Origin: a virus
Length of the DNA stretch: 45,516 bases
Direction: 5' to 3' (one strand)
Virus record (IMG/VR): IMGVR_UViG_3300035703_000154
Location: 1-45,516 of that record
This document shows positions 1-12,908 of the stretch, piece after piece (position 1 is the first letter of the stretch; the number at the start of each line of letters is the position of its first letter). The position numbers were made by a program, and so were the translations under genes. The notes beneath the pieces are model-generated. The model saw nothing but the letters and a program-made list of their open reading frames with translations. It did not search any database and was not told the origin of the DNA.

Positions 1-360
1 AGTATCACCAGTTTTTACAAATCCCCTAAAAACTCTTTTGAAAGTTTTGGTTCCAGTAACTGTTCCAGCACTTGATAATGTAAAGTCTTCTTCAATAAGA
101 TCCCAGTTTGAGTCTAAACCAATAATGGTTACTACTTTTCCATTATCATCAGCACCTACTTGTGCTGCTACAAGAACTCCTGGAGTATTAAAAGCACTCC
201 AAGGATATAAAGTATCTGATTTATCCCATACCGTTGCCGTAACGTTAGTTGATTGTGTTGGAGTTGCACCAAACTTATGGAGTGTTGATGCCCCACGAAC
301 TGATCCGCGAGAAACATTCAAGTCAAACTGTTCATCCCAAATATAATTTTTAAAACCCAT
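1..360 (-). CDS. Virion structural protein, HKFG/GLDxNW family (3' end cut by window edge)
   Basis: The frame opens with ATG at 360 and runs without a stop to the window edge, giving the first 120 residues. The start reads MGFKNYIWDEQFDLNVSRGS, followed by a 'TLHKFG' motif near residue 33, 'PWSAFNTPGV', 'IIGLDSNWDLIEE' and, near the end, 'KRVFRGF'. I recognise this order (an RGS-x-x-G start, HKFG, GLDxNW, RVFR) from a beta-rich structural protein family common in marine podo- and myophages; its exact position in the particle is not known to me. It lies just downstream of the prohead-core-like genes, where T4 has gene 68/21, so it is probably a head or head-associated protein. Family call by remembered motifs only. 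Confidence 0.6.
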   Translation of the reverse strand, partial: MGFKNYIWDEQFDLNVSRGSVRGASTLHKFGATPTQSTNVTATVWDKSDTLYPWSAFNTPGVLVAAQVGADDNGKVVTIIGLDSNWDLIEEDFTLSSAGTVTGTKTFKRVFRGFVKTGDT

Positions 361-362
361 AA

Positions 363-683
363 TCAATCAATCCATTCTAACTTTGATGGGTGGTATCTTT
401 GTGCGTTTTTAATGTTAAAGTTTTTTTCCAGTACTGGATAAATTTGATGAACTACGGCTCCTGGATAATCAGATTGTAGTTGCTCACCTAGTTCTCTTGG
501 AGAAGGAACTCCAGTTTTAGTGACTAACTCTAAACGATATAAACTTCCTTGCCACATTACATCAGCAATGTATCCTTCACCGACTTGTTGTGGTTGTTCT
601 GACTGAGAATTGATATAAAGATTTCCTGTGAAATCACCAGCAATATTAACCGATTCTGAGATAAATTGCTTGAAAGATTTCAT
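363..683 (-). CDS. Small putative internal/prohead protein with capsid-targeting-like N terminus
   Basis: 106 residues from ATG 683. A longer start at 713 exists, but the 683 ATG follows a strong purine-rich ribosome site (GGAAGAGGA) and lies one base after the stop of the preceding gene, so I prefer it. The N terminus MKSFKQFISES closely matches the T4 internal-protein capsid-targeting sequence MKTYQEFIAE-A, including the I-x-E|S form expected for cleavage by the gp21 prohead protease. The rest is a small domain (residues 38-84) with W44, G46, Y49, P60-S61, LQ 69-70, YPG 73-75 and VV 77-78. The same pattern recurs in the 571-residue protein at 7383-9098. Inference: packaged in the prohead and processed. 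The function of the mature part is unknown. Confidence 0.6.
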   Translation of the reverse strand: MKSFKQFISESVNIAGDFTGNLYINSQSEQPQQVGEGYIADVMWQGSLYRLELVTKTGVPSPRELGEQLQSDYPGAVVHQIYPVLEKNFNIKNAQRYHPSKLEWID

Positions 684-684
684 A

Positions 685-846
685 TCATTCCTCTTCCTGA
701 ACTTCTTGTCCAAACATATTCATTGCAACTTGTGGACGAAAACCATCAATTTTTTCCGCAGACTTAGTAAAAAGTAATTCTTTAATTTTATCGCTGATTT
801 GAGAAGGTGACTCGTCAGCTGCAATCATATCAAGAAGGTCATCCAT
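685..846 (-). CDS. 67: gp67-like prohead core peptide
   Basis: 53 residues starting MDDLLDMIAADESPSQISDK and ending in an acidic tail (EVQEEE). In T4 the small prohead core protein gp67 is encoded directly after portal gene 20, begins with an M-(E/D)-x-L-I-x-x-I type helix and ends very acidic. Position, amphipathic start and acidic end all agree, but the T4 protein is longer (about 80 residues) and I could not align them. An AGG about 10 bases upstream can serve as ribosome site, and a TATAAATA box sits just before it, overlapping the end of gene 20. Its TGA (687-685) is one base from the next ATG (683), so the two are probably translationally coupled. Confidence 0.55.
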   Translation of the reverse strand: MDDLLDMIAADESPSQISDKIKELLFTKSAEKIDGFRPQVAMNMFGQEVQEEE

Positions 847-871: not shown

Positions 872-879
872 TATTTATA
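872..879 (-). promoter_or_regulatory. T4-like late promoter box TATAAATA
   Basis: Exact match to the T4 late promoter element TATAAATA on the minus strand. It overlaps the stop codon of the portal gene and lies 26 bases before the gp67-like start, the right distance for a short leader. It would drive the head-core genes to the left. Confidence 0.65.
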
Positions 880-2563
880 TCTCGCCACCCTTGGGCATTT
901 CTACTTGTTTTCCACTTGCTTCTGTTGCTTTTCCCTGTGCATCTAAATTAGGTTCCATTACTGGTTGACCCAAATCCATTTGTGCAGTTTGGTCTAATGG
1001 CATACCTGTTGCAGGATCTACTGGAATATTGGGGTCTGGAATAACTCCATCCTTAATTTCTTTTTCGATTAGTTTATCCTGTTCAATAATCTCAATATCA
1101 GTTTGGCGTAGAATTTTGCGACGAACATAATCTTGAGAAAAATATTTTCCAACATATGGCTCTGCAATTTGCACCATGTTTAATCTCTCATTCATTAACT
1201 CAGATTCTTTGAGTTCTGAGAAATGATTGTCATATAGGAAGTCATACTGAATATGCTCACTCATAATCTCCCAGTCTTCTGGAGAAACAATGTTCTTCAA
1301 AAGTAATTGCGTTCTTAACATATCATTGAACATATTTGCGAATCTCTTTCTCAAACGTCCAACAAACTTAGTGAATTTCAGTTCGTCTCTTAAAATTTCA
1401 GATGAGCGGCCTAAATTAAATCCACCCTCACCATCCATTCTTGATGGTGGAACATTTAGAGAACGATATAGTTTCTTCTTAAAATATTCAATATCAGTAA
1501 TTTCTCCAAGATTCTGACCACCAGGAAGTGTAGTAATCTCTGTACCTCTACCACCTTCGCGGCGAGGTAACCAGAAATCTTCCATCATACTCATGAATTT
1601 TTTATCATCACGAATTTCGCCAGTATTTGCGTCATATACCAGTTTGTTTCTGTAACGCATCATAACATCACGGAGATATTGTTCCGCTTTTACTTTAGGA
1701 AGATTACCTACGTCAATGTAGAAAATTCTACGCTCTGGAGCACGAGACAGTCTGTAGATAACAAGCGAGTCCTCAATCATTCGAAGTTGATTGAGAGCTT
1801 TAATTGCTTTATGGAGATATGAAAGGGTATTACCTTTATTTCTATCTACAAGTCCAGAAGTGCAGTAAGAAACGGAATCTTTTGTCATTTTGATTCCTTG
1901 ACTTGCACCAGTAGATGCAAAGTTTCCTGTTGGGTAAGATGTCTTAGGATTGTAAATAAAATACTCTTCGATTTCTGGAAAGTCATAATCCATGGGATTA
2001 TCACTTTGAAGAATTGAGATATTTCTATTGTACGCTTTATCAGATTCTTTTTTCTTCTCTTTGCGAATATAACGCATTTTCATTGCGTCAATGTATCGCA
2101 ATTCTTGAATTCCTTCTTGTGGGTTTTTTAAATCAATTACTTTGTGGTAGTAAATTCTCCCATCAACATACCAATTTCTATAAATTTCATGACACTTCTT
2201 GTCAAAATCTAAAAGATTTAAAATATGCTTAAATTCTTGCCTAATTTTTTTCTTGAGACCATCACTTGCATTGAGATTAGATAACTCAATTTCTACTGGA
2301 GTATCATTAGTATCTGATACAATGGCTTCATTTACAATATCTTCAATGGCACTATCAACTTCTGGGTGAAGTGCCATTTCACGATATCTTTTAATTAATT
2401 CAAACTCTGTTCTATATACGCCTTCTAAGTCTACATACGAACCAAAAAAACCACTACTCATGTAGTGGTCAACCCCGTCCTCATTATTTTGAGGAACGGG
2501 GGAAACTGCACTTGGAGATAGTGGTTCAGTATCCTCTATTGAGAATCCAAATAACTTTGCCAT
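875..2563 (-). CDS. 20: Portal vertex protein gp20
   Basis: 562 residues (T4 gp20 is 524). This is the dodecameric portal through which DNA enters and leaves the head and to which the packaging motor and the neck attach. The N-terminal third has the family stretch 'YRTEFELIKRYREMALHPEV' followed by 'DSAIEDIVNEAIV'. The core has 'YNPKTSYPTGNF', 'SGLVDRNKGNTLSYLHKAIK' and 'LRMIEDSLVIYRLSRAPERR', and the crown region has 'RSLNVPPSRMDGEGGFNLGR'. The C-terminal 50 residues are proline- and acid-rich. It follows the tail-tube gene by 28 bases, with an AATAAATA box at the junction. Gene order 17-18-19-20 is exactly that of T4. Confidence 0.95.
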   Translation of the reverse strand: MAKLFGFSIEDTEPLSPSAVSPVPQNNEDGVDHYMSSGFFGSYVDLEGVYRTEFELIKRYREMALHPEVDSAIEDIVNEAIVSDTNDTPVEIELSNLNASDGLKKKIRQEFKHILNLLDFDKKCHEIYRNWYVDGRIYYHKVIDLKNPQEGIQELRYIDAMKMRYIRKEKKKESDKAYNRNISILQSDNPMDYDFPEIEEYFIYNPKTSYPTGNFASTGASQGIKMTKDSVSYCTSGLVDRNKGNTLSYLHKAIKALNQLRMIEDSLVIYRLSRAPERRIFYIDVGNLPKVKAEQYLRDVMMRYRNKLVYDANTGEIRDDKKFMSMMEDFWLPRREGGRGTEITTLPGGQNLGEITDIEYFKKKLYRSLNVPPSRMDGEGGFNLGRSSEILRDELKFTKFVGRLRKRFANMFNDMLRTQLLLKNIVSPEDWEIMSEHIQYDFLYDNHFSELKESELMNERLNMVQIAEPYVGKYFSQDYVRRKILRQTDIEIIEQDKLIEKEIKDGVIPDPNIPVDPATGMPLDQTAQMDLGQPVMEPNLDAQGKATEASGKQVEMPKGGEI

Positions 2564-7382: not shown

Positions 7383-9098
7383 TTAATTACAATTCCAGCG
7401 GCGAAGTGCTTTATTGATATTGCTATCTGGATCTCTGGAAGTCTTTGCTGAAGTTAATTTTGACTTCATACCCTTCATACGTCTACAAAAAGATTTGCGA
7501 CGAGATGCTCTTTTTCCTGTTGGATTTTTTTCTGTAACTGCAGTTTGGAGTTTTGAACCTGGATTTTCACGACGATAAGCATCCACTGCTTTTTGGCTTA
7601 ATCCATCAGTTTTATCTTTTCTATTTACTGATTGCCAATCTTCTTCGATTTCAACTTCTTCGCCCATAGTTTTGACATAATTTCTATTTGGTCCTGGTTT
7701 TGCTGCGCTTCCACCTTGAGGGCCAAGAACTTGAATTAATGGTTGACCCGATTGAAACTCTGAGACTGAGTGATAGAGAACAACAGAACCTGGATAAACT
7801 TTTTGAAGTTCATCTGAAATTTCTTTTTTAGTTGGAAGTTTGACCTGGGGGAAAAACATTTTAATAGAATAGTATTTTCCTCTCCAAGAAATAGTAACTG
7901 CAAATATATTTCCTGTTTGTGCCTGTAAACGTGTTGCCTCTTCAATTTGAGATTTAAATCCTTTTATTGGTTCTGGATCAATTAAATCTACGATTTCTGC
8001 AAAAGTATTTCCATCTGCGTCCTCAATGGTTACATCTTCTTTCTTTACACAACGATTATACTTCTTTCCAAAAAGTGTCTGCGTTCCCTTTTTCTTATAT
8101 CCAGGCCAACACTTCATTTCCTCCATCTCACCGCTTGCAATATAATCTGCTGCAGTGTCAATGTAGTCTGCTGCTTTAGTGATTTTCGATTGAACCCATG
8201 CCTCAAGATCTCCTTCACCTTTACCAACTTTTGCCTGGAGTCTCTTTACTGCATCGGCAATGGTTTTGAGTTCAGATCTTGTCATTGAATATTCTTCATC
8301 TTTGATAGAAACTTTATCCCAAGCCTTTTCTCCATAAGAACATTCGGATCTAGTTTCTCTTTTGTCACATAATGGACAATATCTCTCTTCTTCGTGCATG
8401 GTTGACTCCGATTTATTTCCCCAATTTGCTGCTCCAACTTTACGACATTTGACAAGTGCTCCAGATGCATATGCACTTGGCCAAACGTCATAGCGAGACT
8501 TTACCTTATTGTAGCAAGCATCTTTTTTGCCACTACCTTTACCTGGTTTGTCTTTAACTTCTTGTAAATCCATTTCTTCAGTTCTTACGTTAGTTGGCTT
8601 TGACCCACCAGTTTTTTGGGGTTGATTTGGATCTTGAATATTTTTTCTGCGTCTTGCTGCTTCTTCTTCATCTTTAGATAGAGTTCTTTTCATTTTAGAA
8701 CTTCCACATTTTGGTGTAGAAGTTTGTCCTGGTTGACGAGCACATGGTTTACCTGCCCACTTTCCACCAAGTTGAACCCATCCTTTCTTACCATCGGATG
8801 ATTTTGATTTATTAAACCAATCATGAAGACCTTCATCTCCCGATTTAGTTTCTTCTTTTACATCTTTAAACTTTTTATGATGCTTTTTAGCATCTGCTTC
8901 CATCTTTTTCAAACGAGTATAATAATCTGGAATTTCGTCAAGATGTTGAAGAGCAATATCCATTGCCAATTCATGATCTTTAGTATGTTCATGCTCAATT
9001 GGTTCTCCCATATCAAGTTGCTTCTGTATAAAAGAAACATCAAGACGATGCTTCTTAGCAATTTGTTCAACTGTTTTATGGGATTTAAATTTACTCAT
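7383..9098 (-). CDS. Mosaic protein of several phage-specific modules between gp16 and gp17
   Basis: 571 residues, basic, no known enzyme motif. Visible blocks: residues 1-75, a helical DUF5661-like segment ('LAMDIALQHLDEIPDYYTRL'); 90-136, 'GWVQLGGKWAGKPCARQPGQ' plus STPKCGSSKM; 192-229, 'SRYDVWPSAYASGALVKCRK' and VGAANWGNKS; 241-253, CPLC and a further Cys; 270-350, a helical block with 'WVQSKITKAADYIDTAADYI'; 396-446, a domain with W405, G407, LQ431-432 and YPG435-437 matching the small protein at 363-683; 500-571, 'AYRRENPGSKLQTAV' and 'RRKSFCRRMKGMKSKL', ending ALRRWNCN, a C-terminal block I know from other T4-like marine phages (DUF6321-like). Domain names are from memory. The linkers are charged and low-complexity. 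Function unknown; the position suggests a link to packaging or the head interior. Confidence 0.75.
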   Translation of the reverse strand: MSKFKSHKTVEQIAKKHRLDVSFIQKQLDMGEPIEHEHTKDHELAMDIALQHLDEIPDYYTRLKKMEADAKKHHKKFKDVKEETKSGDEGLHDWFNKSKSSDGKKGWVQLGGKWAGKPCARQPGQTSTPKCGSSKMKRTLSKDEEEAARRRKNIQDPNQPQKTGGSKPTNVRTEEMDLQEVKDKPGKGSGKKDACYNKVKSRYDVWPSAYASGALVKCRKVGAANWGNKSESTMHEEERYCPLCDKRETRSECSYGEKAWDKVSIKDEEYSMTRSELKTIADAVKRLQAKVGKGEGDLEAWVQSKITKAADYIDTAADYIASGEMEEMKCWPGYKKKGTQTLFGKKYNRCVKKEDVTIEDADGNTFAEIVDLIDPEPIKGFKSQIEEATRLQAQTGNIFAVTISWRGKYYSIKMFFPQVKLPTKKEISDELQKVYPGSVVLYHSVSEFQSGQPLIQVLGPQGGSAAKPGPNRNYVKTMGEEVEIEEDWQSVNRKDKTDGLSQKAVDAYRRENPGSKLQTAVTEKNPTGKRASRRKSFCRRMKGMKSKLTSAKTSRDPDSNINKALRRWNCN

Positions 9099-9115
9099 TT
9101 ATATAATTGAACCTT

Positions 9116-9127
9116 TATTTATTTATT
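9116..9127 (-). promoter_or_regulatory. Double late-promoter-like box AATAAATAAATA
   Basis: Two overlapping AATAAATA boxes (9116-9123 and 9120-9127) over the end of gene 16, 18-29 bases before the 571-codon gene. A near-match TATAAATG also overlaps that gene's start. Confidence 0.4.
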
Positions 9128-9557
9128 GATCCAATTTTTCTTGAGACTGTTGCTTAAGTAATTTCAATAGTTCTGCGGTAGAACCAACGAAAAGCGAATT
9201 ATTAACTGTTGTTGGTCCTTTTTGTTTATCCTCTTCAACATCCTTCAATTTTTTCTGAAGATCCATCAATTTATCGGTCGCATCGGCCACATTTTTAATG
9301 AGTTGTCCTGCAACTTCATATGCACGAGGCATCTCACTTTCTTGAGCAAGTTCTAAAATGCCATTAATTGCTTCTTGTCCTTTTTCAATTAAGGAGTATA
9401 AATTTCCACGAGTATATTCATAGTCCTTTTTAATATCGTCAATTCCATTAGATATTTTTTCAATTTTTTCTGGAGTAGAGTCTTCATTCATTGGTACTAT
9501 TTCAGCCTCTACTTTGAAGGTATCGTTTAATTTGTCGAAGTTTTTAGTCATTTTCAT
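9123..9557 (-). CDS. 16: Terminase small subunit gp16
   Basis: 144 residues (T4 gp16 is 164). DNA-recognition and regulatory partner of gp17; forms rings of helical subunits. The central helical region has the family signature 'DIKKDYEYTRGNLYSLIEKG', 'QEAINGILELAQESEMPRAY' and 'EVAGQLIKNVADATDKLMDL'. The C-terminal segment 'VNNSLFVGSTAELLKLLKQQ' is also typical. It starts with ATG overlapping the gp15 stop by four bases (ATGA), so translation is coupled to gp15. The second Met (MTKNF) is possible but lacks that overlap. Confidence 0.93.
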   Translation of the reverse strand: MKMTKNFDKLNDTFKVEAEIVPMNEDSTPEKIEKISNGIDDIKKDYEYTRGNLYSLIEKGQEAINGILELAQESEMPRAYEVAGQLIKNVADATDKLMDLQKKLKDVEEDKQKGPTTVNNSLFVGSTAELLKLLKQQSQEKLDQ

Positions 9558-10555
9558 AATGTAGTTCCACTAAATCCAAAATCGTCGCCTTCTTCGATTA
9601 AAGTATTATCTGTAGAAGTTATTGATTTTATTGGAGATCCTTTTAAGTGAGATGTTATTGTTGTATTATCTCTACCTCTTTCCACAGTTAATACATTTCC
9701 ACTCTTTAACTTCACGTACACTTCTTCACCTTCAAGATCTAGATATGAATTTGGAGAGATCAAAGTTGCATTATCAACTTCGATTAAGGTATCTGTAGTT
9801 GTAATATCCTTGGATAAAATTGCAACAATTGTTCCTGTATAATTTTTGATTGCTCTTGGTTCCGCTGAATAAACAACTTCTCTTGTTGCATTGTCTGTTG
9901 TTGCACCAGTAAGATAACTGACAGTTGCCTTTTTGATAACGTCTTTTGTTGCAGAAGAAACTGGTCCAAAGAGATATGTTTTAGCTGTAAATCTCAGTGT
10001 ATATAATAGAACTCTTCTTGTTGTGAAATCTCCTTCATAATCATCTTGCATGGTAACATTTTCGAGAACTATGGGAATATCTCTTTTCTCATTAATTCCC
10101 TCAACTAGTTCAATTGTAATATTATATGCTGGTTGAAAATATGGTAAAATTTGCTCAATGATTTGTAAAGCATCATCATTGAGTTTAGACATTATGCTTA
10201 ACTCAAACTGCATGTTATAAGGAACAGGCATAAAAACTTTTTTTATTTCTGCACCGTTACTTGCATCTTTTGTGGTAAATGTTTGAGTTGTAGTTACTTT
10301 TCTTGAAGGGTCATAAGTAAGTCCAGTGAACTCAAATGACATTCTTGGCAATGTCATCGCAACCGTCTTATTTAAATCTGGGGACTGATTTAATCTGGCT
10401 AAGAATTTTTGCGTTGGACCATAAGCCAAAGGAACTTTTAAAACACTTACAACCTGATCTGCAGAATTTTTATGTTCTATGCTTATATTATTAAAGAGAG
10501 AACCAAATGCGATTACGGTTCTTCTTAAAATTTCGTTATAAAAATATTCAAACAT
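9554..10555 (-). CDS. 15: Tail sheath stabilizer / neck protein gp15 with inserted module
   Basis: 333 residues (T4 gp15 is 272). Hexameric terminator that caps the tail and joins it to the neck. The conserved core spans about residues 1-215: 'MFEYFYNEILRRTVIAFGSL', 'VPLAYGPTQKFLARL', 'LPRMSFEFTGLTYDPSRK', 'PVPYNMQFELSIMSKLNDDA' and 'RVLLYTLRFTAKTYLFGPVS'. Residues 247-312 are an extra small beta module ('SYLDLEGEEVYVKL' ... 'TVERGRDNTT') of the same type as modules in the giant baseplate proteins here. After it a short conserved-looking tail, DDFGFSG, ends the protein, so the module is an insertion ahead of the tail. A CATAAATA box precedes the gene. Confidence 0.93.
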   Translation of the reverse strand: MFEYFYNEILRRTVIAFGSLFNNISIEHKNSADQVVSVLKVPLAYGPTQKFLARLNQSPDLNKTVAMTLPRMSFEFTGLTYDPSRKVTTTQTFTTKDASNGAEIKKVFMPVPYNMQFELSIMSKLNDDALQIIEQILPYFQPAYNITIELVEGINEKRDIPIVLENVTMQDDYEGDFTTRRVLLYTLRFTAKTYLFGPVSSATKDVIKKATVSYLTGATTDNATREVVYSAEPRAIKNYTGTIVAILSKDITTTDTLIEVDNATLISPNSYLDLEGEEVYVKLKSGNVLTVERGRDNTTITSHLKGSPIKSITSTDNTLIEEGDDFGFSGTTL

Positions 10556-12029: not shown

Positions 12030-12878
12030 CTAACCGATCATATCTAAAGGTGGAAGTTCGTATGTACTTGACATTTTTTCCATTATAATATCAATTTCTC
12101 TTTGAGCATCATCATATAACTGTCTTCCATTTAGCTCAACTCCACCTGGAAGTTTTACCCCCTGAAATTTAATTAAGTTTTGTCCCCATTGACGCTTGAT
12201 GAGAGAAGTTAAATATGGTTTTAAAAATGAATCGTTCCAAACTCTACTAAAATCATTTGGATTTAAAGCCCTATAGCAATCTATAATCAAATAATCTCCA
12301 ACAGTAACACTTCCCCAATCAATATCAAGATATAATCTATCCATTCTTTGATTAAATCTTATTTGCTTTTGTGTAGTTAGTAAAAAGTCAATATCCTCAA
12401 GATAAGTTTTTAACATGGCATATGTTAAAATTTCAGTCGAACCCCAATAGTAAATATCATTTAAGAACAATTGATATTTCACACTAAACATATTATTTGT
12501 TGTAGTGTTTGATCCATCAAAATGATATATTTTTTGAATTCCAATAATAGATGGTGGAACTTGAAGAAAATTACTATTTTCTTTATACGTAAAAGTAGTT
12601 GCAGTTCCTACAATATTTGCTGTTGCCGTTGTTATTGCTATTCCCGCAGAGGGAGATTGTCCATTAGGAGCTCTTCCTCTGTTGATATCATCCTGAGTTA
12701 TTTGATACTTTAAAAACATCTGAGAGACGCCATCAAAATGTCTCTCTTGGAAAAACTGTATAGCATCATCTACGAGATCATCAATTTGTTCATCCGCAAC
12801 ATTAATTTCCAAAACTGGCGCACCCAGTTTTCTCTTACAATAATCAATTAATTCTTGCCTACTATTTGGTTGCGCCAT
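12030..12878 (-). CDS. 13: Neck protein gp13
   Basis: 282 residues (T4 gp13 is 309). Head-completion protein that binds the portal after packaging and accepts the tail. Signature regions: 'RQELIDYCKRKLGAPVLEIN', 'EQIDDLVDDAIQFFQERHFD', 'YWGSTEILTYAMLKTYLEDI', 'FNQRMDRLYLDIDWG' and 'SFLKPYLTSLIKRQWGQNLI', with the C terminus 'IDIIMEKMSSTYELPPLDMI'. Its stop is 4 bases before gp14, as expected for a coupled pair. An exact TATAAATA box lies 23 bases upstream and an AAGGGG ribosome-site-like stretch 13 bases upstream. It carries no large insert, unlike its partners gp14 and gp15. Confidence 0.93.
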   Translation of the reverse strand: MAQPNSRQELIDYCKRKLGAPVLEINVADEQIDDLVDDAIQFFQERHFDGVSQMFLKYQITQDDINRGRAPNGQSPSAGIAITTATANIVGTATTFTYKENSNFLQVPPSIIGIQKIYHFDGSNTTTNNMFSVKYQLFLNDIYYWGSTEILTYAMLKTYLEDIDFLLTTQKQIRFNQRMDRLYLDIDWGSVTVGDYLIIDCYRALNPNDFSRVWNDSFLKPYLTSLIKRQWGQNLIKFQGVKLPGGVELNGRQLYDDAQREIDIIMEKMSSTYELPPLDMIG

Positions 12879-12900: not shown

Positions 12901-12908
12901 TATTTATA
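12901..12908 (-). promoter_or_regulatory. T4-like late promoter box TATAAATA before gene 13
   Basis: Exact late-promoter octamer on the minus strand in a true intergenic gap, 23 bases ahead of the gp13 start. It would begin the neck-packaging-tail operon. Confidence 0.65.

Follow-up and report, generated by a model that had tools for sequence, protein, structure and literature searches.

A putative T4-type capsid-targeting leader on a small protein of a freshwater cyanophage is shared by unrelated candidate cargo proteins

The IMG/VR virus record IMGVR_UViG_3300035703_000154 (45.5 kb, analysed whole and called the window here) comes from a T4-like (freshwater) cyanophage. A minus-strand gene near its edge (683-366, stop codon 365-363) encodes a protein of 106 amino acids (aa), MKSFKQFISESVNIAGDFTGNLYINSQSEQPQQVGEGYIADVMWQGSLYRLELVTKTGVPSPRELGEQLQSDYPGAVVHQIYPVLEKNFNIKNAQRYHPSKLEWID, with the N terminus MKSFKQFISES, the first ten residues of which resemble the capsid targeting sequence (CTS) of phage T4 internal proteins. 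The ATG (683-681) lies one base past the stop codon of a 53 aa gp67-like gene, which matches phrog_14164/phrog_2088, comes after the gp20 portal gene, i.e., in the gp67 position, and has a counterpart in S-CREM1 annotated as "prehead core component". The initial annotation of this DNA, made from the sequence alone, had described a 106-residue protein starting in this way after a gp67-like core gene, and the translation, the PHROG match and the position after gp20 bear it out. Its count of seven or more positions matching T4 MKTYQEFIAE holds if similar residues are included (9/10) and fails by identity (5/10), because five residues are identical (M1, K2, F7, I8, E10) and four more are conservative. 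This is the only strict leader at any start codon within the window.

Over residues 1-100 the protein matches the profile of phrog_1742 (E 5.3e-42), a Kyanoviridae family of unknown function. The family has 139 matches among phage records, every one in a cyanophage, and hundreds more in IMG/VR; it is absent from S-PM2, Syn9, S-SM1 and S-CREM2. F7, E10 and S11 are present in all members aligned (alignments of 18 and 31), and the bodies are as little as about 41% identical. Among 52 close homologues the ratio of nonsynonymous to synonymous polymorphism (pN/pS) is 0.160 for the core, 0.11-0.14 outside the core and the leader, and 0.057 for residues 2-11, making the leader the part of the phrog_1742 protein under the strongest constraint.

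The end of the leader, I-S-E↓S with E and S invariant, fits by its sequence the L/I-x-E sites at which T4 gp21 cuts (PMC9026906). The window stops short of the gp21 and major capsid protein (MCP) genes. Near relatives of the window phage encode gp21, and their MCP carries [SF]-L-x-E↓A/S (SFLTEA, LMES, LAES) aligned with SFLTE↓AEIGG of T4 gp23; Ser at P1' in the leader thus fits the protease of this clade. The T4-type leader with a gp21-type cut site that the initial annotation proposed appears, with F7, E10 and S11 invariant, to be a conserved element resembling a sorting signal.

T4-type leaders are rare overall (0-5 per genome), and strict leaders at start codons number 0-4 per genome in the 12 phage genomes scanned. 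This start-codon scan found no strict match in S-PM2 or HTVC008M; the leader pattern had no match in S-CBWM1, a non-T4 cyanomyovirus, and a single one in S-TIM5, on a protein without a recognised cargo domain. Across 11 further genomes the pattern gave 25 matches, two of them in very short frames that are not genes (13 and 18 aa), vs. one for the reversed pattern, and the canonical form MKTFxEF[ILM]xEA occurs in at least 120 stretches of IMG/VR vs. none for its reverse. A control scan of T4 recovered two adjacent internal-protein genes and gp61.1. T4 gp61.1 (NC_000866 18966-19130, minus strand, locus L477), a 54 aa protein of unknown function, starts with MKTFKEFIKE, a near-perfect targeting leader; it adjoins adfA (61.2), in a region termed a possible anti-TA (toxin-antitoxin) island (PMC9391042). 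Were the N terminus of the 106 aa protein a product of chance or of lineage inheritance, with no role in sorting, the protein would work in the infected cell, and the failure to detect its orthologues in virions would be accounted for. We consider this very improbable given that the reversed-pattern controls returned 0-1 matches, that purifying selection is strongest on the leader, that unrelated proteins carry the same leader and that the leader is associated with proteins detected by mass spectrometry (MS), as described below.

Behind the leader of 80 IMG/VR proteins we found about 28 families without mutual similarity, and 51 of the 80 loci have hallmark genes of T4-like cyanophages in the flank. 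Pfam and PHROG domains behind the leader include GNAT acetyltransferases, PARP/ART-like domains, DUF5661, DUF5872, DUF6321, a DPBB lytic-transglycosylase-like domain and one 5'-3' deoxyribonucleotidase-like protein, and a leader protein of S-CREM2 is an S-adenosylmethionine (SAM) lyase (PF23780, E 2e-19). The leader was not found to be common on clearly non-virion proteins: no replication or host-metabolism gene is among the start-codon matches in the annotated genomes, and the one doubtful carrier, encoded in an IMG/VR contig, resembles a nucleotidase. Separately, a 67 aa leader protein of S-SRM01 (47292, plus strand, locus L225) has a HiPIP domain (PF01355, E 6e-5) and is possibly a packaged iron-sulphur protein. 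Four tandem leader genes, one GNAT-like, lie within about 2 kb of a freshwater phage (G003:79736-81555, minus strand, loci L246-L249) and may form a cargo island. A second N-terminal module behind the leader, L-G-L-x-x-D-G-H-G/G-F-G-x-W/Y-x-D... V-A-R-T, is common to unrelated cargo: S-CREM2 gp12 and gp14, S-CRM01 128c and 130c, and the NMNATs of S-SCSM1, G001, DSL-LC02 and S-SRM01.

Published virion proteomes connect the leader to cyanophage particles. The strict leaders of S-CREM2 are those of gp6 (SAM hydrolase), gp14 (kinase) and gp154 (cytidylyltransferase), all three MS-detected non-structural virion proteins. A position profile trained on the leaders of phrog_1742 and of T4 internal proteins alone was applied to all 219 proteins of S-CREM2, a phage without phrog_1742. 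Five were positive (gp154, gp6, gp136, gp14, gp13), all five MS-detected and none of them a core structural protein (p 6.5e-4, or 4.4e-5 if only non-structural proteins are counted), in a test that was not blind, because the regex matches were known before the profile was built. A broader rank test of the S-CREM2 non-structural MS proteins against the rest was weaker (p 0.02), as expected if the leader sits on few of these proteins. The S-SCSM1 NMNAT (SSCSM1_91) and the S-SM1 cytidyltransferase (T4-GC190), both MS-detected, have the leader as well, and the S-CRM01 kinase, cited as virion-borne in PMC10665884, starts with the variant MISFDQFLSEK. Pooled over four proteomes, 5/8 strict-leader (regex) proteins are MS-detected vs. 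1.5 expected (p 0.007); the three undetected are SSCSM1_30 and SSZBM1_191, both phrog_1742, and SSZBM1_192. The leader had also been put forward as a genome-wide probe for cargo, and in this use it succeeds in picking enzymes already found by MS in cyanophage virions: the five S-CREM2 proteins, the NMNAT, the cytidyltransferase and, with its variant leader, the S-CRM01 kinase.

Two further MS-detected proteins have displaced motifs. SSCSM1_93 (S-SCSM1 91626-91835), 70 aa, has a leader-like motif at its C terminus (...KKRTFKEFLEYIE). In S-CREM2 gp12 (7704-10313, minus strand), annotated as Cas9-like, the leader motif LRFASFMAEAA is shifted to residues ~17-27, possibly because of a later start or as an internal signal.

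The 106 aa protein might instead be a minor component of the virion, or a protein that helps to assemble it, located at the neck, a vertex or the portal and having an uncut N terminus that merely resembles the leader. The motif is short and the neighbouring genes are portal and structural ones; the leader nevertheless precedes about 28 families unrelated to one another and is enriched among enzymes of the virion that are not structural, which makes this improbable.

Several points weigh against packaging of the 106 aa protein itself, besides the lack of blinding noted above. The phrog_1742 orthologues SSCSM1_30 and SSZBM1_191 are missing from the two published virion proteomes able to reveal them (45 and 30 proteins listed), although the sequences of both contain tryptic peptides in the detectable size range and proteins about as small were found. 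Low copy number is one possible cause; the other is a place in the core followed by loss at maturation, as for T4 gp68. In addition, the folded core contains another L-x-E (residues 65-67), and virion proteomes may hold contaminants, according to their authors. The cargo interpretation of the initial annotation therefore stands in part, with a conserved leader and a working probe on one side and the missing orthologues on the other.

The missing orthologues would suit a component of the prohead core, brought there by the leader to aid assembly and leaving the head after gp21 cleavage rather than being injected. T4 gp68 is a precedent, with 240 copies in the prohead and 0 in the mature head (PMC9026906), and such a component would agree with the internal L-x-E and with the adjoining gp67-like gene in the window clade. 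That position is peculiar to the clade, however, in which the "gp114"-type block is split and the phrog_1742 gene placed after gp67 instead. In most isolates the gene is right behind a multidomain "gp114"-type gene, the stop and start often overlapping, and is followed by a structural gene. The family is missing from S-PM2, Syn9, S-SM1 and S-CREM2, and therefore is not a required core part; the compact conserved fold after the leader also speaks against a core role. We regard this explanation as unlikely, although better placed than the two considered above.

We consider it likely that the 106 aa protein is a head-targeted, cleaved, retained and injected protein of a T4-like freshwater cyanophage. 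What the sequences show is a leader that is conserved, rare, present on unrelated proteins and associated with proteins of published virions, together with gp21 and a matching MCP site in relatives; from this we infer that the protein is targeted, cleaved, kept in the mature head and injected, and that it acts in the host. Residues 1-10 would act like the T4 CTS and bind the core of the prohead while this assembles; cleavage after I-S-E10 by the protease gp21 would then free a 96-residue beta-beta-alpha-beta protein. This would remain in the head amid the DNA and pass into the cell together with the DNA. A wider packaged set may bear the same leader, including NMNAT, SAM lyase, kinase, GNAT and ART-like proteins and the DUF5661/5872/6321 modules.

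The AlphaFold2 model of the 106 aa protein has disordered residues 1-10 and a beta-beta-alpha-beta core (Table 1). A Pfam search with the protein gave no match, and among PDB sequences it had at best weak matches to RPA (E 0.1). The top Foldseek match, 4lk0_M of the T7 Gp2 / RNA polymerase epsilon (YkzG) fold, is not significant (prob 0.99, TM(target) 0.73, E 0.19). A T7 Gp2-like fold would have been a lead to an inhibitor of host RNA polymerase; the model of a homologous module did not reproduce the match, and therefore we do not claim it. The predicted fold thus gives a weak hint of function. The homologous module belongs to a 571 aa multidomain protein encoded elsewhere in the window, whose counterparts, SSCSM1_29 and S-CREM2 gp137, were both MS-detected in virions and both have the module. 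Sf-FS3 has the beta-beta-alpha-beta module as a separate 82 aa protein that carries a leader, and DUF5661, DUF5872 and DUF6321 are each found elsewhere as separate leader-bearing proteins. The 571 aa protein thus looks like fused head-cargo modules.

Among the features around the gene, the sequence TATAAATA was dropped as evidence for a late promoter: its total in the window does not exceed chance expectation, and it is kept as a positional hint only. A second T4-late-promoter-like site is at 12901-12908 (minus strand), just upstream of a gene starting at 12878.

Table 1. Features of the window that bear on the leader gene and the 571 aa protein.
Feature	Position	Strand	Basis
Next gene downstream, incomplete at the window edge; similar to the S-SCSM1 virion protein SSCSM1_31 (MS-detected)	1..360	-	comparison by eye
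Predicted mature protein, residues 11-106, 96 aa, phrog_1742	366..653	-	E 5.3e-42
Beta-beta-alpha-beta core, residues 36-83, low-confidence arms either side	435..578	-	AlphaFold2, block pLDDT about 70-91
Predicted prohead-protease cut, I-S-E10↓S11	651..656	-	E10 and S11 invariant; L-x-E↓A/S in the MCP of relatives at the T4 gp23 cut position
Leader residues 1-10, MKSFKQFISE, putative capsid-targeting-type propeptide	654..683	-	translation, family alignments, pN/pS
gp67-like prohead core gene, 53 aa	685..846	-	PHROG match; position after gp20
GAGG Shine-Dalgarno in the last codons of the gp67-like gene, 6 nt 5' of the ATG	690..693	-	read from sequence
TATAAATA, similar to a T4 late promoter, immediately 5' of the gp67-like gene (then the leader gene)	872..879	-	positional hint
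gp20 portal	875..2563	-	Portal_T4 E 5.5e-193
571 aa multidomain protein (DUF5661, DUF5872-like, beta-beta-alpha-beta module, DUF6321)	7383..9098	-	domain/PHROG matches
Module homologous to the 106 aa core, preceded by an invariant Glu in I/V-x-E15, then mostly A	7719..7982	-	hhalign 96%, E 2.2e-9

We lean, by a small measure, toward a broader view in which T4-like cyanophages use T4-style targeting as a general route for loading effectors: one leader would serve dozens of unrelated genes, some of them arranged in tandem, and the 571 aa protein would be fused cargo. The loaded enzymes would act on NAD, SAM, protein acetylation, ADP-ribosylation and phosphorylation, next to small folds like that of the 106 aa protein. 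The leader is shared with enzymes found in cyanophage particles and therefore can be read as a packing list; the leader-bearing proteins are probably proteins that cyanophages inject into their hosts. Several papers that report non-structural enzymes in cyanophage virions cannot decide between packaged proteins and contaminants (PMC9602691, PMC10665884). A label shared by these enzymes would offer a mechanism and a simple predictor of packaging, one that also predicts the exact mature N terminus, and the products of hundreds of uncharacterised genes of abundant aquatic phages would become candidate injected proteins.

The internal proteins of T-even phages are described in reviews as diverse defence proteins united only by the CTS (PMC3012670). 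The 106 aa protein resembles T4 IPI-IPIII, whose CTS is matured by gp21, in having a 10-residue leader of the form M-K-[ST]-[FY]-x-x-F-[IL]-x-E with an L/I-x-E cut (PMC3012670, PMC9026906), and the conserved leader ahead of diverse mature parts is likewise a T4 trait. It differs in coming from Kyanoviridae, which have other hosts, in Ser at P1', in a mature domain in which Pfam sees no internal protein, and in that its packaging and cleavage are predicted. Its likeness to phrog_1742 is full-length, and that entry records neither function nor head targeting; a possible likeness to T7 Gp2 and RNA polymerase epsilon would lie in the small beta-beta-alpha-beta topology. The virion-associated regulatory proteins of cyanophages (NMNAT, APH/ChoK-like kinase, SAM hydrolase) have the same leader and come from the same phage family. 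They are larger than the 106 aa protein and unrelated to it in sequence, and the papers cited above report their presence in virions and no targeting signal. In the open-access literature we found no description of the leader system in cyanophages (subscription papers lay outside the search), and "capsid targeting" and "cyanophage" co-occur only in a T4 review. The leader system itself is already known from T-even phages. Unlike the T4 internal proteins, the cyanophage leader cargo includes NMNAT, SAM lyase, GNAT and kinase proteins, an unexpectedly broad set.
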